Origin: Prevotellaceae bacterium
GTDB taxonomy: Bacteria > Bacteroidota > Bacteroidia > Bacteroidales > UBA932
Length of the DNA: 38,042 bases
Reading direction: 5' to 3'
NCBI GenBank assembly: GCA_031258415.1
Contig: JAIRMW010000021.1
Span: forward strand, 1-38,042
Each line of letters starts with the position of its first letter. Position 1 is the first letter of the stretch. Shown piece after piece: positions 11,533 to 22,365 of this stretch. Position numbers and translations under genes: made by a program. A model generated the notes under the pieces. That model saw nothing but the letters and a program-made list of their open reading frames with translations, was not told the origin of the DNA and ran no database searches.

Positions 11533-14500
11533 TTAATCTTTCTTTAATGTTATATACCCTGTTTTCACAGTTGTAAGTTTATTATGGTCGGTTAGTTTCA
11601 ATTTATAGAAATAAACGCCATCCTGTAAATTAGAACCGTCAAAGAGATTGTCGTAATACTTCATGTAGAAGACCTGATTACCCCAACGGTTGACAATCGT
11701 CAGTTCATTGGACAGATATTCGTCAAGGCCTTTGATTTCCAATACGTCATTTTCATTGTCTCCATTCGGAGTTAAGATATTGGGAACCACTATTGTATTT
11801 AGAACAATCAATTCCACCTGATTCGAAAGAGCATCGCAACCCGGTAACGAATAGGCTACTACGGTATATATACCCGCATCGAAGGCTTTCACCATATTGA
11901 GAGCCAAGGAACTGCCTCTTTCTCCCGATATTTCATACCCATTGTGATACCACTGGTAGGAGAGCGAGGTCGAATAGTTCGCAATATTAATATTGGTATT
12001 GTCGTCTTTGCGTACGTATACGATGGTTTCATTGCTGGCAGCAGCAATAATCGGTGCAGAAGGCCTTGCCACGGTTATGACAACCACTACACCACTGACC
12101 GACGATTCGCACGAATGCGAACTGATTGCACGTACCGTATAAGAGCCTGCCTCCTTAGCCCAATATTTCATTCCAGTACCTATGGAAGTAGTACTAGCGT
12201 CCAAGTACCATTTGTAGCTTACTACATCAGAGCCTCCGCTTACTACCGCATTCAATGCTACAGAATCGCCCTGGCAAATTTCCAATGCGCCATCTGAAAT
12301 AATAACCGGTTGAGGCGGTAACGGATTTACGGTTAATGTAATCACATTACTTACTTCTGACAAGCATCCGGCCGCACTTATGAAACGAACGCTATAACTA
12401 CCCGACGTTGAAGGCAAATAACTAGCGGCCGTAGCAAACGGTATCACTACGCCATTTCTATACCACGCAATCGTATTGGTTCCGACAGGCGTGCTTGTTG
12501 TCAATGTCGGCACATCATTTTCGCATACGGATGTATTCGAGACCGAGGCTATGACCGGCGTCGTCGGTTTTGGATTAACCGTTACTACCACATTGCCGCT
12601 GGTATCCGAAGTACAACCCGCCGCACTGACAGCCACAACCGTATACGTTGAGGTCGCGGTCAGCGTCGCAGTAGTATACAAACTAGTAGTAGCAGCCGAA
12701 ATGACTCCGCCGTTCAGATACCATTGATAGGAGATCAAACCAATCGAGATAGTCGAAACAGCCGTCAGCGTTACCTGTTCGCCTTCGCAGATGTTCACCG
12801 ATTGTGCCGGCGTTACTACCGGAACCGTCGGCACCGGATTTACGGTTACCGTAATAATATCACTCACTGCTGAGGGACATCCGCTGGCACTGACAACGAT
12901 CAGCGTATAATCGCCCGATTCATATGCGACGAAGGTATTAGCCGTCGGCGCGGTATTTAGCGTAACGCCATTTCTATACCAGCGATACGACGTACCGGAT
13001 GGTCTGGTTATCCTGTCGCTAATGGTTACACTGCCTCCTTCACAGAAGGTCGTTACCGACGAGGTATCCAACTGTGGAGTAGCCGGTTTCGGATAGACCG
13101 TGAAACTCCAGTCGGCTAAGGCATTGCTTGCGCAGCCGGTAGTTATGTTACGATTACCCACTTTATAATTATAGGTGCTATCGTCAACCGTGCTCAATGC
13201 AGGCGCTGTAGTAGTAGCAGAACCATCGGCCAGATACCACACAAATTCATAGCCTTGTTGCGGCGTCGGTAAGGACGGATTCGGGTCGTCCTGACAAGCG
13301 GTCAGCGGCGTCAATATCGGCGCTTCCGGCAACTGATTTACATTGATATGTATAGTAGCCTCAGCCGTACATACGCCTGCCGGAACATTGCTATAGTGTT
13401 TTTCAGCCCGTACCGTATAGGTTACACTCTGACGAATATCCTGTACCAGCGATCCGGGCAGGCCGGTTACCGGCACTACTGTTGTCCAATAGGTCAACGT
13501 ATCGTCGCCCGTGTGGGACGTTACTAAGGATAACAAATCGACGTCCGAACCGTAGCAAACCGTCGTGTCGCGAGCGACGACTGTCGGTACGGCGCGTACT
13601 TCAAACGTAAACGTTGCTCTTGGGCTTTCGCAGAACGGAGCCGACTTTCTCTTTAGCGTTATTTCGTAGGTTGTTACACCTGCCGAATTTGTTGATAATA
13701 CAGGCGGATAAGCCAATGCGTTAGGCTGTCCCGGCACGTACCACTTCAGATCCAAATGATCCGGGTCGTGCGATACCGGTAATGCAGGCGCATTACTGCC
13801 GACACAAGCCGCCACAGTCAGATCATAGGTCGGCGCTGCCGGTTGCGGCGGTAGCGGAATAATCGTTACTGCCACAGCCTCGCTTATACCCGACGTACAA
13901 CTTGCTGCACTGATAGCCTCAACCGTGTAAATTATAGTGGTATCGTTCAGCGTCGTCGGAGTCGTATATTGACTGCCGGTTTCACCGGAAATCGCTATGC
14001 CGTTCTGATACCACTGATAAGTGAGAGACGAAGCATCGGAGATCGTCGAAGAAGCAGTCAGCGTTAGCTGTTCTCCTTCGCAGATGAGCAACGACTGTAC
14101 AGAGGTTACGACCGATGAGGGCCACGTTACAGTCGGAACTGTCGGCAACGGATTTACGGTTACCGTAATAGCATTGCTCTCGTCGGAGAGGCATCCGTCG
14201 GCGCTGACAACTACCAGAGTATAAACGCCCGATTCAGTAGCGACGATAGCATTAACCGTCGGCGCAACGACCAATCTGTTGCTGTCTTTATACCAGCGGT
14301 ACCTTACATTGGTTCTGGTTACCGTATCCCTAATAGTTACACTGCCACCATCACAGAAGGTAGTAACAGACAAAGTATCCAAGTACGGAATAACCGGTTT
14401 CGGATAGACCGTGAAACTCCAGTTGGCTAAGACAGCGCTTTCGCAACCGGTAAGTGTATCACGATTGCCTACCTTATAATTATAGACGCTATCGTCAGCC

Positions 14501-17500
14501 GTGCTCAATGTGGGTACTGTAGTAGTAGCAGACCCATCGGCCAGATACCATACAAATTCATAACCCGGTTGCGGCGTCGGTAACGACGGACTCGCGTCGC
14601 CCTGACAAGCTGTCAGCGGCGTCAATACCGGCGTTTCCGGTAGCGGATTTACAGTGATTTTGATATCCGCCGTACTGGTGCAAACACCTGTCGGACTTAA
14701 ATAAAATTTCTCAGCCTGTACCGTATAGGTTACGCTTTGGCGAATATCCCGCACCAGCGATCCGGACAAGCCGGTTACCGGCACTACTGTTGTCCAATAG
14801 GTCAACGTGTCGTCGCCCGTGTGGGACGCTACTAAGGAGAACAAATCGACGTCTGATCCGTAGCAGACCGCCGTATCGCGCACAACGAGTGTCGGTACGT
14901 CGCGTACTGTGAATGTAAACGTCGCCCTTGAGCTTTCGCAAGATGGCGTCACTTTGTTTCTCAGCGCTATCTCGTAGGTCTCTATACCTACCGCAGCCGT
15001 TGATAACGAGGTTATAGTAGTATCCGTATTAGTACCCGGTATGTACCATATCAGCTCCAAATAGTCCGGGTTGTGCGATACCGGTAATGCAGGAGCAACG
15101 CCGCCCACACAAGCTGCTATGTTCAGATCATAGGTAGGCGCTGTCGGTTGCTGCGGGATAACAGGAAGGATAAACCAACCATTTGTAGTAGCATAGGTTA
15201 CTGACGAACTCGCATCTACTACGGAGATTGTATATTGTGGCGCCCTATTCACTAATGAGTTATTTCTGTTGATAATTCGCAGATTCAGACGCGCCTCGCC
15301 AAGCGGTAAGCGATATGCACCTTGCGGGTGGAACGACAATTGTCCGCTCGTATCAAAGAAACTGTTCAGCGACAACCATACCGGTGCAGCGGGATTCTTA
15401 GCCACATCCGTTTCCTCATATTCCAATTCAAAATATTGCAGTTCGTTCGTGTCTATAGTAAGATAGATGTTTACTAAGGAGTCGATACATCCGCCCACAG
15501 TGGCTACCGTAAAGGAGGTCGTATCGCATCCTATCGAAGAGCCATTGAGGAGGTCGACAGTAATAGAAGGCGGCGTTAATGCTTTGAGCGTTACAACTCC
15601 ATGGTTCGACGCCAATTCTGTGCCATCAGCTTTACTTATAATCGATACTTGATAGACTAATTGGTCGTCGAACTGCGAATAGTTGGTGTTGGCAATACGG
15701 AAACGTAATGAGGTATCCACAGCAAACCCGTAGAAAGGCCCTACCTGTGTACCGTCGCTACCGATCGTAAAGTCGAACCATTGATTATAACCATGTCCTT
15801 CATAGTACTGCATCAGATAGTAAGAGGTGTCGGCCGGATTGAGTACTTTCAGTCTCACAACGGATTCTGTTCCTTTGTGGCAACCAAGAATAGCATTGAC
15901 GTCAAATTCCGTCCAGTCGCATTCTATGGTAGCGCCATCTAATGATGTGCTATCTGTCAACAATATATCAATTTCCGGCTGCGGTTCTACGACTACCTTA
16001 ATCGTATCGGGCAGCGTGTAATACGTGGTCGTTTGAGTCGGAACATCTACAGTAGATACTATAAATTTAAGTTCTACCGCGCTCCCGGTGGTATTCGTAT
16101 TCGTGATTCGGAGCGGTATTTTTATAAAGTTAGTGTCTCCCACGATGTAATAAGTCCAGCCGTATACGATGTTGTCGCTATATCCGTCCACCGTCAGGTA
16201 GTCGGTGGTTCCGTTGACTTGAGCTTCTAATTTAAAGACGCTCGTATCTACTACATTGCTGTTAAGCAACCGTATTTTTAGAAGTTTAGAAATATTCGTA
16301 TCGCAATAATCCCATGCCTCTAACGTGAATTTATTTTCCCGTTCGCAGAGTAGCACCGACGGAATGTCGGTTTTTATGCCCTTGTAAGGCAGTACGACTA
16401 ACGTATCTTTAAAGGCCTTGCCGACCACCGACGAATCCGACGCCAGTACGAAACTTATCTCATAAGGTATGGCACGCGTAATCGTATCAAACGTATTGGC
16501 ATTGGCAATCCTAAACCAGGTGTTGCCCGTGAGATTTCCTATTGGCGCATTCGGATCGCTGTACATAACTCCATCGTCAAAGTACTGGTTTGCATTCAAC
16601 CAGCCCCAGGGCACGGAGTAGTAATCTAATTTAACATATTGTAAGAGCGAATCCGGCAAAGTTATTCGTATGCGTTTATCGACGTCGGAATAACATTTAT
16701 CCTCCGCAACGAAATGCAGGTAGAATTTCGTCGTATCGCAGGAAAGGGTATCCAGCGTGAACGGGTCCGTCAGATAAGCGCTATCCGTTAATTTTATATA
16801 CGGTTGCTGTTTCAGGTAGAGGGTATCTTTCAGTGACACTAATGCCACCGAATCGCCTACGTTCAACAAGTTCACCGTATAGGAAACCGGCACTACCGAA
16901 TCGCGGGTATTGTTGTTTTTAGCGATAATCGTTACGGAATGCTCAGCGGCAAAGATTGTATCGGCGCCGCCCCATAGCTCGCCCGTAGCGTCATCAATAA
17001 AGCTCTGCAACGAGGTGTTGCCTGCATCGAACAATTCAAACAAATCCTTAATCGAACTATAATCGTCTATTACTAACTGCAATATCTTAGGGGCAGGACA
17101 GTTGCTTGCACTAACCGTTATGTCTATCCGATTTGTCGACGAACACTCCAGCGAATCAGGCGCGACCAGCGTTATTTCCGGCAGCGGTGCTACGACTACC
17201 TTAACCGTATCGGGCAGCGTGTAATACGTGGTCGCTTGAGTCGAAACATCTACAGTAGATACTATAAATTTAAGTTCTACCGCACTCCCGGTGGTATTCG
17301 TATTCGTGATTCGGAGCGGTATGTTTATAACACTATTGTTACCTTGGATGTAATAAGTCCAGCCGTATACGATGTTGTCGCTATATCCGTCCACCGTCAA
17401 GTAAGTGGTAGTTCCGCTGACCTGAGCTTCTAATTTAAAGACGCTCGTATCGGCATTGTTGTTAAGTAACTCTATTTTTACAAGTTTAGCGGTAGCCGTA

Positions 17501-20500
17501 TCGCAATAATCCCATGCCTCTAACGTGAAGGCTTTTTCCCGTTCGCAGAGCAGCACCGACGGAATGTCGGTTTTTATGCCCTTGTAAGGCAGTACGACTA
17601 ACGTATCTTTAAAGGCCTTGCCGACCGCCGACGAATCCGACGCCAGCGCTAACGTGATCTCATAAGGTATGACATACGTAAGCGTATCAAGCGTATTGGC
17701 ATTGGTGATCCTAAACAGGGTGCTGTCCGTGAGATTTCCTATTGGCGCATTCGGATCGCTATACATAACTCCATTTTCAAAGTACTGGTTTGCATTTAGC
17801 CAGCCCCAGTTCGAGGAGTAGTAATCCAATTTAACATATTGTAAGAACTCTTGCCGTAAGGTTATTTTTATGCGTTTATCGACGTCGGAATAACATTTAT
17901 CCGCCGCAACGAAATGTACGTAGAATTTCGTCGTATCGCAGGACAGGGTATCCAGCGTGAACGGGGCCGTCAGATAAGCGCTATCCGTCAATTTTACATA
18001 CGGTTGAGGTTGCAGGTAAATGGTATCGCTCGCCACCGCTAATTCTACCGAATCAGCTACATTGAGTAAATACACCGTATAGGAAACCGGTACTATCGTA
18101 TCGCGGGTATTGACGCTGGAGGCCTTCAGGGTTACAGTGTGCGCAGCGCTACGGATTGTATCGCCGCCGCCCCACAACAGAGCCGTACCATCCCCTTGTG
18201 GCATAATAAATCCATTCAACAATGAGCCGTCTGCTTCGAACAAATTAAACAAGCCGACAATCGAATCGCCTGCCGCGTAGTTATCTACTACGAGCTTCAA
18301 TATCTTAGGATTGTCGCAAGTATTAGCGCCAACCGCTATCGTTATATCGCTCGGCGTCGAACAGACCAGCGTATCTGCCGCTTGAGTAAGCGTTACGGTC
18401 GGTAGCGGATCTACATATATGGTAAGCGTATCGGGATAGGTATACTGCGCGGGAAAACCTGTCGTCGTATCGACAACCGATAATACAAACTTGACTGTTT
18501 GCGTAGCCGCAGTAGTATTCGTATTCACCACCCGGAAGTTTACGGAGGTGGAAGCGGTAAACAAGTCGCTCATGCCATATAATATACCGTTTACATAATC
18601 AGTGCTTTTCACTTCGGAGAAGCCTGCGGGAGTAGGGGCTCCGGGGTTGAACCAATATTCCAATTTAAAGAAGTTGGTATCCGCCTCACTCAGCAGTTGC
18701 AGTTTTATAGCCTTCCCTGCGGTGGGATTGCAGAAACCCCAAGCGCTCACAGAAAATTCTTCCCGTTCACAACGCAACGTATTGGAGCCGCCCGAAAGAC
18801 TCGTTTCCACGTCGGTAACGATCCCGTACCGCGGTTTTACTACAATCGTATCATAGTATGTCCGACCTACGGTATTTTTCTCTACTATCTCCTCGAAGTA
18901 TATCGTAAAGGGAATTTTGCGCGTAATAGTATCAAACGTATTAGCGCTAGTTATCATTAATGAGATGGAATCCGAAGTACCCGTTGGCACCCTATCAAAT
19001 CGTTCTGTCCCATTGGGAAGTTTCATCGCCGTATAAGTAGAGCTCCCTATTCTTTTATAACTCAAATCAATATACTTCCTTAAGAGGGAATCCGACAAGG
19101 TTATGTGCATAAGTTTTGCGGCGTTGTTATAGCACGCATCTTCTACAAAATAATTCAAGAAGAATGCTGTCGGATCGCACTCGGCTACTAACGAAGTAAT
19201 CACCTCGCCGGAAGCATCTCCCTTATGCAGTTCGAAATACGGTTGCGGCAGCAGGTAAATGGTATCTTTCACCGATACTATTCCTACCGAATCGCTCGTG
19301 TTCGCCAAATAGACCGTATAATAAACCGGGACTACCGTATCGCGGAGATTGAGGTTTGCGGACGCAAACGTTACGGTGGCCGCATTTCCGGTGATCACAG
19401 TGGCGTCCCATAGCACGCCCGTACTGTCGACGCCTGTCAACGCTAAGACTTCGGCAATCGAGTCGGTCGCGTAATTATCTATTACGATCTTTAATACTTT
19501 ATCGTTGTCGCAAGAACTGCTACCGACATGGACTGTTATAGAGCCGCCCGACGCGTTGTCGCAGTGCAGCGTATCTTTGTTCGTTTGGTCAATCGCGATG
19601 GTCGGCAGCGGGGCTATATGTAGTAGTATTGTGTCGGGATAGGTATATAGCACGTTGGATAAAGTGGCCGAATCGACCACAGATAATACAAACTTGACTG
19701 TTTGCGTAGCCGCAGTAGTATTCGCATTCACCACCCGGAATGGTACGGAGGTGGAATCGGTAAACACATCGCTCATGCCGTATAATGCACCACTTGCATA
19801 ACCGTTGTTCGGCACTTCGTAATAGCCTGCCGGGGAAGCAGGGGTGCTGCCGGCGAACCAAAATTCCAATTTAAAGAAGTTAGTATCCGTTACATTCTTC
19901 AGTTGCAGTTTTATAACCTTGTTGTCGGAGTTACAGAAGTCCCAAGCATTTACTGTGAACAGTACCCGTTCGCACCGCAAGGTGGTATCGGCCCCTAAGT
20001 TCGTCTGTAAATCGGTTTCTACTCCGCCGGTAGGCAATACGAAAATCGTATCCGTATACGAATGGCCAATCGCCGTACTGTCGCTGGCTTTTACGATTTC
20101 CATCATATAAGGTATTGCGATTGTATCGCTACCAAAGACATGGGTGTTGGTTGCCCGGAACGGATGGGTATAACCGTTTGGCGTGTTCGCCGATATTTGG
20201 GTACTGTAAACTACCGCATTGCCGCCGCCTATGGTATAAGTTGCATTCTGATAAACGCTGCTGCCGTCCATCCATTCCAGATCAATATACTTTAATTTAT
20301 CTGCCGGCAGAGTTAAGCGTACGTACTTAGCCGTATCGGCATAGCAAACACCCGCTATATTGTATTGTATACGGAATTCTTCTGCCGTGCACCCCAGCAT
20401 ACCTAAAGAAAAGGCCGTGATAGTAGAAACATCTTTATTAATCAGCTTTATGAAGGGTTTCGGGAGCAGGGTAATCGTATCGCGTACCGAGACAATCTCC

Positions 20501-22365
20501 GACCCATCAAGATTGACTACGCTCACCGTAAAATAGACGACCTTTGCCGAATCGTGATCGTTGGTACTGAGAGCCGTGAATTTAATCCCTCCCGGATCGT
20601 AACCGGACGGAATGGTATCAGGGCCAAACATGGCGCCATTCCCTGCATTCAATTGGTCTGTCAAGGTATCCGTATCATTAAGAACAAGCGTAAACAAATC
20701 CTTCACACTGGCGTAGTCGTCTATTTCCAGCTTAACAAGCGAAGGAGCGCTGCACGAGCCGTCAATGTCAACGGTAAGCGCTTCAGCAACGCAACTTAAC
20801 GAATCCGGAGCGGTAATCGTTATGGCAGGCAGTTTTTTTAATTTTGTTGTACCTGACATAAGAGTATCTAGAAACGTAGTGGCAAAGCCATTAAGATTAC
20901 AGGTTGAGAAGCCGATGGCATAGCCCAAATTAACATCCGAACTTGAACGATTGGTATTCGTCAACCTGAACTTGATGTACTTGACTTCCGTGTCGCCTGT
21001 CGTGATCCCATGCCCTAATCCTATCAGGGACGAGTCGGACCATATATTGGCCGGCTTAAATGTATTATCATTCTCGTCAAAGAATTCTATACCGAGTATG
21101 TCGGAGCCGGGGGTCCACCCTTGCGTTAGCTTCAGATAGGGATAATAGGTGCCTGACACCGGCACACACGGATTTATAACCTCCAATGTAAATGTTGCGG
21201 GATCACAAGAGATCGAATCGGGCACCGTAACATTTATTTTAGGCTTCGGCGCTACCTTAATCGAACCCTTATAGGGCGTTACGTCATAGGCAAAGGCGGT
21301 GGAATCTTCGGTAACCAACGACACGGTATAAGACAACGGAGTGAAATTTAGAGTTGTATTATTATTGTGTGCGGTGAAAGAAAAAGCGCTGTCTGAGCCG
21401 GAGGAAGGCAGTGTAAACGTGAAACTGGTAAATGTGGCCGGCGAAGCGTTTCCCGTGCCGTCGTAAGTCAATAGATATAAGTCGGTCGGTTCCGGGCCTT
21501 CAAATTTCAATCTTACCGTTTCAGACAAACAGGAGCCATGCACGGTTACTGTTACCGGCACGTTTTCACACCGCAACGTATCGGCGTGCGCCACTTCAAT
21601 CCATGGTAGCGGGGGTACTATAAAGGCGCTGCTGAACGGAAGTACACCTTCCAGCGACTGCCCGGTAGAAGGATCTATTAAAGTTACCGTATAGGAAATT
21701 GTATCCGTTTTGTGCGAATTGTTTTTATTTTTTACACGAAACACAAAGGCGATGGAGTCGACATTCAGTTCAAACGTCTCGCTGGTAAACACGTTAGGCG
21801 CCGCCGGCTGGCCATTATAGCTCAAATCTACAGCATTGTTGAGTTCCGTAGATTCAAACTTCAATCTTACATCACTGCCACGATAGCAACTGGCATCAAT
21901 GGATTTTAACACTACCAGCGCGGTATCGGTTCCGCAGAACGATGCCGGTTGTGTAACGGAAATCTGAGGTACCGGCTTTACCGTAACAACAGCACTTGCG
22001 ACACCCGCTGAAACCCCACTATTAGTCAGGTTAGCTAAAATATTAAACCATTCTTGCTCAGGAAAATCCGCGTCAATAGTAACAATTGTCGTGGTAGTAT
22101 TTCCGTATTGGGGATTTACATGAATTTTAGCCTCTAATGAGGAAGCATTGGCATTACCGGGATTAACAGCTATCTTCCATTCCACATGAGTAAAGGTTGC
22201 GTCAGTGATGGTCGCTGTAAAACTCGTTCCCGCGCAAACCGTAGTTGCAGGTACTGTTACAGTCGCTGCCTGTCCGAAGGAAAAGGGTACTGCGCATAGC
22301 GTAATTGCTAAAGTCGTAAATAGCTTCCGCATTTTCAAACCGCGGAGAATTTCACTTTTTTTCAT
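11533..22365 (-). CDS. Giant (3610 aa) modular T9SS cargo / surface protein with type B (CHU_C, gliding-motility-associated) sorting domain
   Basis: One uninterrupted ORF; signal peptide MRKLFTTLAITLCAVPFSFGQ; repeated beta-rich modules; C-terminus VVPNILTPNGDNENDVLEIKGL...LTIVNRWGNQVFY...LQDGVYFYKLKL...GYITLKKD. Start could be 22365 or 22332. Confidence 0.95.
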   Translation of the reverse strand: MKKSEILRGLKMRKLFTTLAITLCAVPFSFGQAATVTVPATTVCAGTSFTATITDATFTHVEWKIAVNPGNANASSLEAKIHVNPQYGNTTTTIVTIDADFPEQEWFNILANLTNSGVSAGVASAVVTVKPVPQISVTQPASFCGTDTALVVLKSIDASCYRGSDVRLKFESTELNNAVDLSYNGQPAAPNVFTSETFELNVDSIAFVFRVKNKNNSHKTDTISYTVTLIDPSTGQSLEGVLPFSSAFIVPPLPWIEVAHADTLRCENVPVTVTVHGSCLSETVRLKFEGPEPTDLYLLTYDGTGNASPATFTSFTFTLPSSGSDSAFSFTAHNNNTTLNFTPLSYTVSLVTEDSTAFAYDVTPYKGSIKVAPKPKINVTVPDSISCDPATFTLEVINPCVPVSGTYYPYLKLTQGWTPGSDILGIEFFDENDNTFKPANIWSDSSLIGLGHGITTGDTEVKYIKFRLTNTNRSSSDVNLGYAIGFSTCNLNGFATTFLDTLMSGTTKLKKLPAITITAPDSLSCVAEALTVDIDGSCSAPSLVKLEIDDYASVKDLFTLVLNDTDTLTDQLNAGNGAMFGPDTIPSGYDPGGIKFTALSTNDHDSAKVVYFTVSVVNLDGSEIVSVRDTITLLPKPFIKLINKDVSTITAFSLGMLGCTAEEFRIQYNIAGVCYADTAKYVRLTLPADKLKYIDLEWMDGSSVYQNATYTIGGGNAVVYSTQISANTPNGYTHPFRATNTHVFGSDTIAIPYMMEIVKASDSTAIGHSYTDTIFVLPTGGVETDLQTNLGADTTLRCERVLFTVNAWDFCNSDNKVIKLQLKNVTDTNFFKLEFWFAGSTPASPAGYYEVPNNGYASGALYGMSDVFTDSTSVPFRVVNANTTAATQTVKFVLSVVDSATLSNVLYTYPDTILLHIAPLPTIAIDQTNKDTLHCDNASGGSITVHVGSSSCDNDKVLKIVIDNYATDSIAEVLALTGVDSTGVLWDATVITGNAATVTFASANLNLRDTVVPVYYTVYLANTSDSVGIVSVKDTIYLLPQPYFELHKGDASGEVITSLVAECDPTAFFLNYFVEDACYNNAAKLMHITLSDSLLRKYIDLSYKRIGSSTYTAMKLPNGTERFDRVPTGTSDSISLMITSANTFDTITRKIPFTIYFEEIVEKNTVGRTYYDTIVVKPRYGIVTDVETSLSGGSNTLRCEREEFSVSAWGFCNPTAGKAIKLQLLSEADTNFFKLEYWFNPGAPTPAGFSEVKSTDYVNGILYGMSDLFTASTSVNFRVVNTNTTAATQTVKFVLSVVDTTTGFPAQYTYPDTLTIYVDPLPTVTLTQAADTLVCSTPSDITIAVGANTCDNPKILKLVVDNYAAGDSIVGLFNLFEADGSLLNGFIMPQGDGTALLWGGGDTIRSAAHTVTLKASSVNTRDTIVPVSYTVYLLNVADSVELAVASDTIYLQPQPYVKLTDSAYLTAPFTLDTLSCDTTKFYVHFVAADKCYSDVDKRIKITLRQEFLQYVKLDYYSSNWGWLNANQYFENGVMYSDPNAPIGNLTDSTLFRITNANTLDTLTYVIPYEITLALASDSSAVGKAFKDTLVVLPYKGIKTDIPSVLLCEREKAFTLEAWDYCDTATAKLVKIELLNNNADTSVFKLEAQVSGTTTYLTVDGYSDNIVYGWTYYIQGNNSVINIPLRITNTNTTGSAVELKFIVSTVDVSTQATTYYTLPDTVKVVVAPLPEITLVAPDSLECSSTNRIDITVSASNCPAPKILQLVIDDYSSIKDLFELFDAGNTSLQSFIDDATGELWGGADTIFAAEHSVTIIAKNNNTRDSVVPVSYTVNLLNVGDSVALVSLKDTLYLKQQPYIKLTDSAYLTDPFTLDTLSCDTTKFYLHFVAEDKCYSDVDKRIRITLPDSLLQYVKLDYYSVPWGWLNANQYFDDGVMYSDPNAPIGNLTGNTWFRIANANTFDTITRAIPYEISFVLASDSSVVGKAFKDTLVVLPYKGIKTDIPSVLLCERENKFTLEAWDYCDTNISKLLKIRLLNSNVVDTSVFKLEAQVNGTTDYLTVDGYSDNIVYGWTYYIVGDTNFIKIPLRITNTNTTGSAVELKFIVSTVDVPTQTTTYYTLPDTIKVVVEPQPEIDILLTDSTSLDGATIECDWTEFDVNAILGCHKGTESVVRLKVLNPADTSYYLMQYYEGHGYNQWFDFTIGSDGTQVGPFYGFAVDTSLRFRIANTNYSQFDDQLVYQVSIISKADGTELASNHGVVTLKALTPPSITVDLLNGSSIGCDTTSFTVATVGGCIDSLVNIYLTIDTNELQYFELEYEETDVAKNPAAPVWLSLNSFFDTSGQLSFHPQGAYRLPLGEARLNLRIINRNNSLVNRAPQYTISVVDASSSVTYATTNGWFILPVIPQQPTAPTYDLNIAACVGGVAPALPVSHNPDYLELIWYIPGTNTDTTITSLSTAAVGIETYEIALRNKVTPSCESSRATFTFTVRDVPTLVVRDTAVCYGSDVDLFSLVASHTGDDTLTYWTTVVPVTGLSGSLVRDIRQSVTYTVQAEKFYLSPTGVCTSTADIKITVNPLPETPVLTPLTACQGDASPSLPTPQPGYEFVWYLADGSATTTVPTLSTADDSVYNYKVGNRDTLTGCESAVLANWSFTVYPKPVIPYLDTLSVTTFCDGGSVTIRDTVTRTNVRYRWYKDSNRLVVAPTVNAIVATESGVYTLVVVSADGCLSDESNAITVTVNPLPTVPTVTWPSSVVTSVQSLLICEGEQLTLTASSTISDASSLTYQWYQNGIAISGETGSQYTTPTTLNDTTIIYTVEAISAASCTSGISEAVAVTIIPLPPQPAAPTYDLTVAACVGSNAPALPVSHDPDHLDLKWYVPGQPNALAYPPVLSTNSAGVTTYEITLKRKSAPFCESPRATFTFEVRAVPTVVARDTTVCYGSDVDLLSLVTSHTGDDTLTYWTTVVPVTGLPGSLVQDIRQSVTYTVRAEKHYSNVPAGVCTAEATIHINVNQLPEAPILTPLTACQDDPNPSLPTPQQGYEFVWYLADGSATTTAPALSTVDDSTYNYKVGNRNITTGCASNALADWSFTVYPKPATPQLDTSSVTTFCEGGSVTISDRITRPSGTSYRWYRNGVTLNTAPTANTFVAYESGDYTLIVVSASGCPSAVSDIITVTVNPVPTVPVVTPAQSVNICEGEQVTLTAVSTISIGLISYQWYLNGGVISAATTSLYTTATLTATSTYTVVAVSAAGCTSDTSGNVVVTVNPKPTTPVIASVSNTSVCENDVPTLTTSTPVGTNTIAWYRNGVVIPFATAASYLPSTSGSYSVRFISAAGCLSEVSNVITLTVNPLPPQPVIISDGALEICQGDSVALNAVVSGGSDVVSYKWYLDASTTSIGTGMKYWAKEAGSYTVRAISSHSCESSVSGVVVVITVARPSAPIIAAASNETIVYVRKDDNTNINIANYSTSLSYQWYHNGYEISGERGSSLALNMVKAFDAGIYTVVAYSLPGCDALSNQVELIVLNTIVVPNILTPNGDNENDVLEIKGLDEYLSNELTIVNRWGNQVFYMKYYDNLFDGSNLQDGVYFYKLKLTDHNKLTTVKTGYITLKKD
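12300..15160 (-). repeat. Ig-like domain region with a two-copy 1308-bp (436-codon) supermodule
   Basis: gtcaacgt(g/a)tcgtcgcccgtgtgggac at 14801 and 13493 are exactly 1308 bp apart; the protein repeats APTYDLN/TVAACVG...HTGDDTLTYWTTVVPVTGL...GYEFVWYLADGSATTT. Confidence 0.9.
15900..20950 (-). repeat. In-frame tandem supermodules of ~1.2 kb (about 400 aa), roughly four copies, the last two near-identical
   Basis: Blocks near 16033 and 17236 repeat at 1203 bp (401 codons); older copies anchored near 18.83 kb and 20.03 kb by the GxxTD...LRCE segment. Confidence 0.9.

Follow-up and report, generated by a model that had tools for sequence, protein, structure and literature searches.

Ig-like modules in a giant T9SS surface protein: a stalk perhaps stapled by disulphides between neighbouring domains

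Giant cargos of the T9SS serve adhesion, gliding and predation, and how very long chains of small Ig-like domains resist being pulled is the question addressed here. The cysteines of one such cargo, P0001, co-occur in neighbouring domains in a manner that points to a simple answer, and one that can be compared with the deposited grappling-hook structures. It suggests that in this giant surface protein of a gut bacterium each domain is stapled to the next, making of the whole one long reinforced stalk.

The locus and its array of modules

The window (the whole stretch of DNA analysed, 38,042 nucleotides from a Prevotellaceae bacterium) carries the gene for P0001, an open frame for 3610 aa, at 11533..22365 on the minus strand, as are all the features of the window whose coordinates are given below. 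P0001 begins with a putative signal peptide (aa 1–32, 22270..22365), marked by a charged start and a hydrophobic core and including one cysteine, C24. An N-terminal Ig-like domain follows (aa 33–125, 21991..22269); it matches no Pfam family and has a single cysteine, C44, at the AB position, the same state as in the module-bearing giants P0008 and P0009. Next come the 17-module array (aa 126–2398, 15172..21990), delimited by cuts at its C-x-C segments and by HMM, and 13 serial Ig-like domains of the Ig_7 family (PF19081, ‘Ig-like domain CHU_C associated’; 11791..15171), assigned from a Pfam scan, an Ig_7 profile and the ledger of cysteines. Six stretches of the Ig_7 array exceed the Pfam cut-off by themselves, and the best Ig_7 stretches listed in the whole-protein scan sit in aa 3125–3607. 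The protein ends in a type B (CHU_C) sorting domain, or CTD (aa 3526–3610, 11533..11790), which passes the cut-offs for CHU_C and TIGR04131 (73.8 bits versus 27, and 41 versus 35).

This CTD, an adjoining PorP/SprF gene and a translocon in the genome together place P0001 among the T9SS type B cargos. The PorP/SprF-family outer-membrane partner, P0003 (10495..11448; PF11751, E 9.9e-68), has a counterpart after the giant gene in all three species that carry the modules, 78–100% identical (78–79% in the two other species), and SprA_N, a translocon family, occurs in the window’s own genome (E 6e-155) and in 7 of 8 congeners. Downstream lies P0006 (8950..10482), an OmpA-domain protein with a PD40 repeat and a CarboxypepD_reg-like domain; at the related locus L033 an ORF of a size close to that of P0006 (510 aa) stands behind PorP. 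Upstream of the giant gene, all three species have an ORF of gcvT size, which in the window looks from its sequence like the glycine-cleavage T protein. The type of cargo, then, is a known one; what is new is the module that it carries, a domain family that neither Pfam nor NCBIfam contains.

The first-pass annotation of this DNA had counted about 17 paired-cysteine modules in P0001, and a regular expression finds exactly 17 C-x(12–16)-C segments, at aa 144–2293 (window ~15487–21936). Cut at these segments, the modules are 121–142 aa each and follow one another head to tail. The HMM derived from them recovers 17 of 17, in order, within P0001 (E 1e-25 to 1e-43) and has no other significant match in the protein; across the whole genome, too, it matches at these 17 sites only (E 4.8e-23 to 2.6e-41). 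The repeat is far beyond chance. Two accessory motifs described earlier, N-x-N and D-T-[IL], hold for most modules, with m1, m3 and m17 deviating from them. Both module cysteines are invariant among 45 aligned modules from three species.

Pairwise identities divide most of the array into three subtypes that the annotation had passed over, as it had the lone C44 and the 13 trailing Ig-like domains: B (m4, 7, 10 and 13), C (m5, 8, 11 and 14) and A (m6, 9, 12 and 15). Three leader modules, m1–m3 (20848..21990), are succeeded by four B-C-A trios, accounting for 12 of the 17 modules—m4–m6 (19618..20847), m7–m9 (18418..19617), m10–m12 (17200..18417; the trio modelled with AlphaFold2) and m13–m15 (15976..17199)—and then by two closing modules, m16–m17 (15172..15975). 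The closing modules are the best conserved across species, with interspecies aa identities of 60–62% for m16 and 51–54% for m17. Trios 3 and 4 are 82% identical in DNA, which indicates recent growth of the array by one trio. Judged from the succession of its C-x-C segments, the homologue in a congener (G003; 4093 aa) has three leaders, five trios and two closing modules, so that copy number varies by whole trio; one additional m17-like module sits within its Ig_7 array. A sliding three-module alignment proved to be out of register and was replaced by trios taken in phase.

A module new in sequence and ordinary in its predicted fold

The modules had been reported as unrecognised, and so they are by sequence: hmmscan finds no Pfam family over cut-off for any of the 17, Pfam and NCBIfam together give no match over aa 1–2400 of P0001, and a profile search of the PDB with the module yields no match, the best being only E about 1. 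Nor do they belong to Ig_7, to which just one of the 17 bears any resemblance by hmmscan (E 0.14). The two kinds of domain are alike in being tandem Ig-like sandwiches near a T9SS sorting domain, with a cysteine in the AB loop and a neighbour-pairing pattern, and the Ig_7 array trails the modules in the same protein. The modules differ in length (121–142 aa versus ~84), in their trio organisation and in having no Pfam match. They differ, too, in their second cysteine, which by strand assignment lies right after strand B, in the BC loop, rather than in the FG loop as in Ig_7.

Of the structures solved, the nearest to the Ig_7 part is that of GhpA, the grappling hook protein A of Aureispira (PDB 9flp series), which matches it with E 7e-173 over the array. 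Like P0001, GhpA is a giant with many tandem Ig-like domains, and AB and FG cysteines are visible in the alignment; the 17 modules, in contrast, have no sequence match in GhpA or elsewhere in the PDB.

A beta-sandwich had been suspected within a long repeat protein, and modelling bears this out in a long multi-domain T9SS cargo. AlphaFold2, given a 45-row alignment, predicts m12 (pLDDT 89.6, pTM 0.81) as ten strands in sandwich-like order, and Foldseek matches the model to Ig-like domains of integrin alpha legs, PAD and complement MG proteins (E 5.6e-5). Strand order and fold matches alike fit an Ig-type sandwich of 7–9 strands, with TM scores that are moderate, 0.59 at most. These likenesses concern fold class only: sequence identity is 10–15%, and we know of no cysteine plan that the integrin alpha, PAD or complement MG domains share with the module. 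A search of BFVD gave weak, generic matches only. Unmatched in sequence by Pfam, NCBIfam or the PDB and Ig-like in its model, the module is best described as a new sequence family of an ordinary fold class, a predicted Ig-like beta-sandwich.

The family is narrowly distributed in the genomes searched. Among 60 relatives, clear copies occur in G003 and G006 only, both in the window’s genus, and among 399 genomes of the family they occur in the same three, the window’s own included; within the family sample the modules are confined to a single genus, where 3 of 9 species have them. A scan of genomes in the GTDB collection picked out two MAGs labelled Prevotellaceae (Nc350_bin165 and Pcl387_bin39); their codes are similar in style to those of the termite-gut samples in PMC7024585, in which Nc150 denotes Nasutitermes corniger. 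A wider, order-level sample returned weak single matches only. The best of them (G634, E 9e-6) falls at the start of a 664-aa ORF (L059, 2303–4294), on an N-terminal domain in which the matched stretch has neither cysteine; judged by sequence, a distant relationship to the modules is plausible but unproven. Matches in G430 and G043 look like chance or generic Ig similarity and were discarded. G003 also encodes a second cargo, of 2367 aa and split over two contigs (L058 11989–19090, plus strand, with L149), which has Ig_7 domains and no modules; it adjoins a PorP protein 73–82% identical to P0003, and is a paralogue without the module array.

Cysteines and their neighbours

In the first-pass annotation each C-x-C pair formed a disulphide that pinned its own module. 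The models speak against this. A strand occupies the interval between the two cysteines, residues 28–37 between C25 and C39 in m12, and residues 29–35, 169–176 and 303–309, one per module, in the three-module AlphaFold2 model; in every modelled module it is 7–10 residues long. A 10-residue strand spans about 30 Å, and a disulphide needs Cα atoms within about 7 Å. As far as strand assignments allow, then, the cysteines are far apart, an outcome that the annotation had itself listed as a refutation, and C1 and C2 are probably not paired within a module. In the usual Ig topology strand B starts at the C-terminal end of the domain and finishes at its N-terminal end. Since C1 precedes strand B and C2 comes after it, C1 of one module should lie beside C2 of the next.

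The ledger of cysteines agrees with this arrangement. P0001 has 62 cysteines, of which 60 lie in its 31 domains once C24, in the signal peptide, and C489 are set aside. The N-terminal domain has the AB cysteine only (C44), all 17 modules have both, Ig_7 domains 1–12 carry an AB and an FG cysteine each, and domain 13, which adjoins the sorting domain, carries FG only (C3510). Pairing between neighbours uses all 60, over 30 junctions; in P0008 it uses 66, over 33 junctions. In P0009, C1 is missing from m1 and C2 from m2, precisely the pair whose joint absence is expected from neighbour bonding. Across the giants of the three species, 92 of 92 junctions are concordant (91 with both cysteines, one with neither), whereas pairing within domains leaves 8 of 96 domains with one orphan cysteine. 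Two cysteines stand outside the pairing scheme: C489, in m3 of P0001, and C2023 of P0008 (L037), which sits beside the C1 of a module in the motif ‘LCCER’.

The same rule can be read in Ig_7 arrays at large. Tandem-Ig_7 loci from Bacteroidota genomes were read with our own Ig_7 profile and runs of at least two domains were kept, giving 84 runs of 2 to 27 domains, 360 domains in all from 16 genera, related proteins included. By the general plan of Ig folds, the AB and FG loops of Ig_7 should lie at opposite ends of the domain. When the AB cysteine of each domain is compared with the FG cysteine of the next, 270 of 276 junctions are concordant and six discordant; compared with the FG cysteine of the same domain, 39 of 360 domains are discordant. 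Shuffling domain order within runs gives a mean of 25 junction discordances and a minimum of 16 in 5000.

The ends of the arrays obey the rule as well. Ig_7 domains directly ahead of a CTD lack the AB cysteine in 17 of 18 cases and retain the FG cysteine in all 18, while those with another Ig_7 domain after them lack the AB cysteine in only 4 of 276 (Fisher 6.6e-23, a value that overstates independence, the AB-less last domains being partly related by descent). Where an extra, non-Ig_7 domain intervenes ahead of the CTD, 22 of 23 cases have the AB cysteine. Of 32 AB-less domains, 19 have an AB-less nearest sequence neighbour and 13 an AB-bearing one, from which it follows that AB loss has recurred. 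The CTDs of the set, assigned by eye, include both type A and type B. Four loci (L096 and L097, in their repeat blocks, and L098 and L100) contain internal blocks of 2–3 Ig_7 domains that end in a domain lacking the AB cysteine despite the further domains that follow it, as if the blocks were separately stapled segments. Cysteine states of SprB repeats from a quick HMM were left unused, as Ig_7 domains had been mixed in.

The proposed stalk and its alternatives

We consider it likely that the modules are a lineage-specific Ig-like family in a T9SS surface stalk whose domains are joined by disulphides, the proposed bonds running from domain to domain. The modules would occupy the N-terminal two thirds of the exported stalk, each with C1, in its AB loop, at its C-terminal end and C2, in its BC loop, at its N-terminal end. 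Once the chain had folded in the periplasm, C1 of each module n would bond C2 of module n+1, and a chain of staples would run from C44 through the 17 modules, and on through Ig_7 as AB Cys (n)–FG Cys (n+1), to C3510. Short, proline-containing linkers and staples together would fix each domain on the next and produce a stiff, pull-resistant rod of 31 domains. The folded chain would then be exported and anchored at the outer membrane through its type B CTD and the adjacent PorP/SprF protein, its modules making up the distal part of the rod; P0001 may, in addition, have some part in adhesion.

The staples could instead run sideways, with cysteines bonding the parallel chains of an oligomer and so joining stalks side by side. 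GhpA lends this some substance, with 56 chains in eight entries, an average of seven per entry, and a staggered pairing between chains could yield the same rule at the ends. We nonetheless think it improbable: joint loss of C1 in m1 and C2 in m2, and the chain-end rule, are accounted for more simply within one chain, and a side-by-side arrangement would need all the Ig_7 runs, from 2 to 27 domains long and diverse in their neighbours, to bundle in register.

It is also conceivable, and to our minds very unlikely, that the cysteines form no bonds with one another, serving as free thiols or metal ligands, and that their co-occurrence was inherited through domain duplication. DsbA was not found in the window’s own genome, which is 68% complete; in nine congeners VKOR was not found either, and Thioredoxin_4 matched only below cut-off. 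These negatives are the main biological weakness of the disulphide proposal, and some AB-less last domains do cluster by sequence. Inheritance, however, leaves unexplained why the AB cysteine is lost ahead of the CTD and the FG cysteine kept, and this loss spans type A and type B CTDs and many domains with AB-containing nearest neighbours.

Bonding within each module, for all that both cysteines are invariant in 45 modules and that nearly all domains have two, we hold to be very unlikely, given the 7–10-residue strand between them, the cysteines that it leaves unpaired at either end of the giant protein and in m1 and m2 of P0009, and the wrong pattern of discordance that it predicts for Ig_7 arrays.

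Disulphides that bear load already have a place in this machinery: SprF of Flavobacterium johnsoniae is disulphide-linked to GldK, by way of a twin-cysteine motif in its C-tail (PMC12635249). The C-tail of P0003, in contrast, is without cysteines, and the stalk of P0001 is thus probably not tied to the gliding track as SprF is. P0001 otherwise resembles the SprB-type gliding adhesins and their SprF/PorP partners, being a giant cargo with a type B CTD and an adjoining PorP/SprF gene; unlike them it has no SprB repeats (PF13573) by Pfam scan.

Linkage of domains by disulphides is possibly a general trait of the T9SS stalks of Bacteroidota. On balance we lean towards the reading that these stalks are generally laced, the AB loop of each Ig-like domain bonded to the top loop of the next so as to resist bending and unfolding under load. 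The scheme would take in Ig_7, the new modules and probably PKD-like and SprB domains also, with the 17-module family a new type of domain plugged into it by means of a different top-loop cysteine. The rule appears to be general in T9SS Ig arrays and was not found described in the literature searched, where no report of inter-domain disulphides in such arrays turned up, although one may stand in papers outside that search. For annotation it offers a guide to paired cysteines in repeats of this kind, and it predicts that the neighbour of a sorting domain will have no outgoing cysteine.

The window encodes a second giant cargo, P0002 (26531–33907; 2458 aa), with PKD, PKD_5 and SprB repeats and CHU_C. 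Read by eye, its cysteines follow the neighbour rule: the domain ahead of the first SprB repeat has no AB cysteine and that first repeat no FG cysteine, and the final PKD domain, ahead of the CTD, shows the FG cysteine only (C2368). Beside it lies P0005 (25550–26530), which by eye looks like a second PorP/SprF-type protein; its C-tail has two cysteines (SPCGRRDGRPC), at a spacing unlike the C-x-C of SprF.
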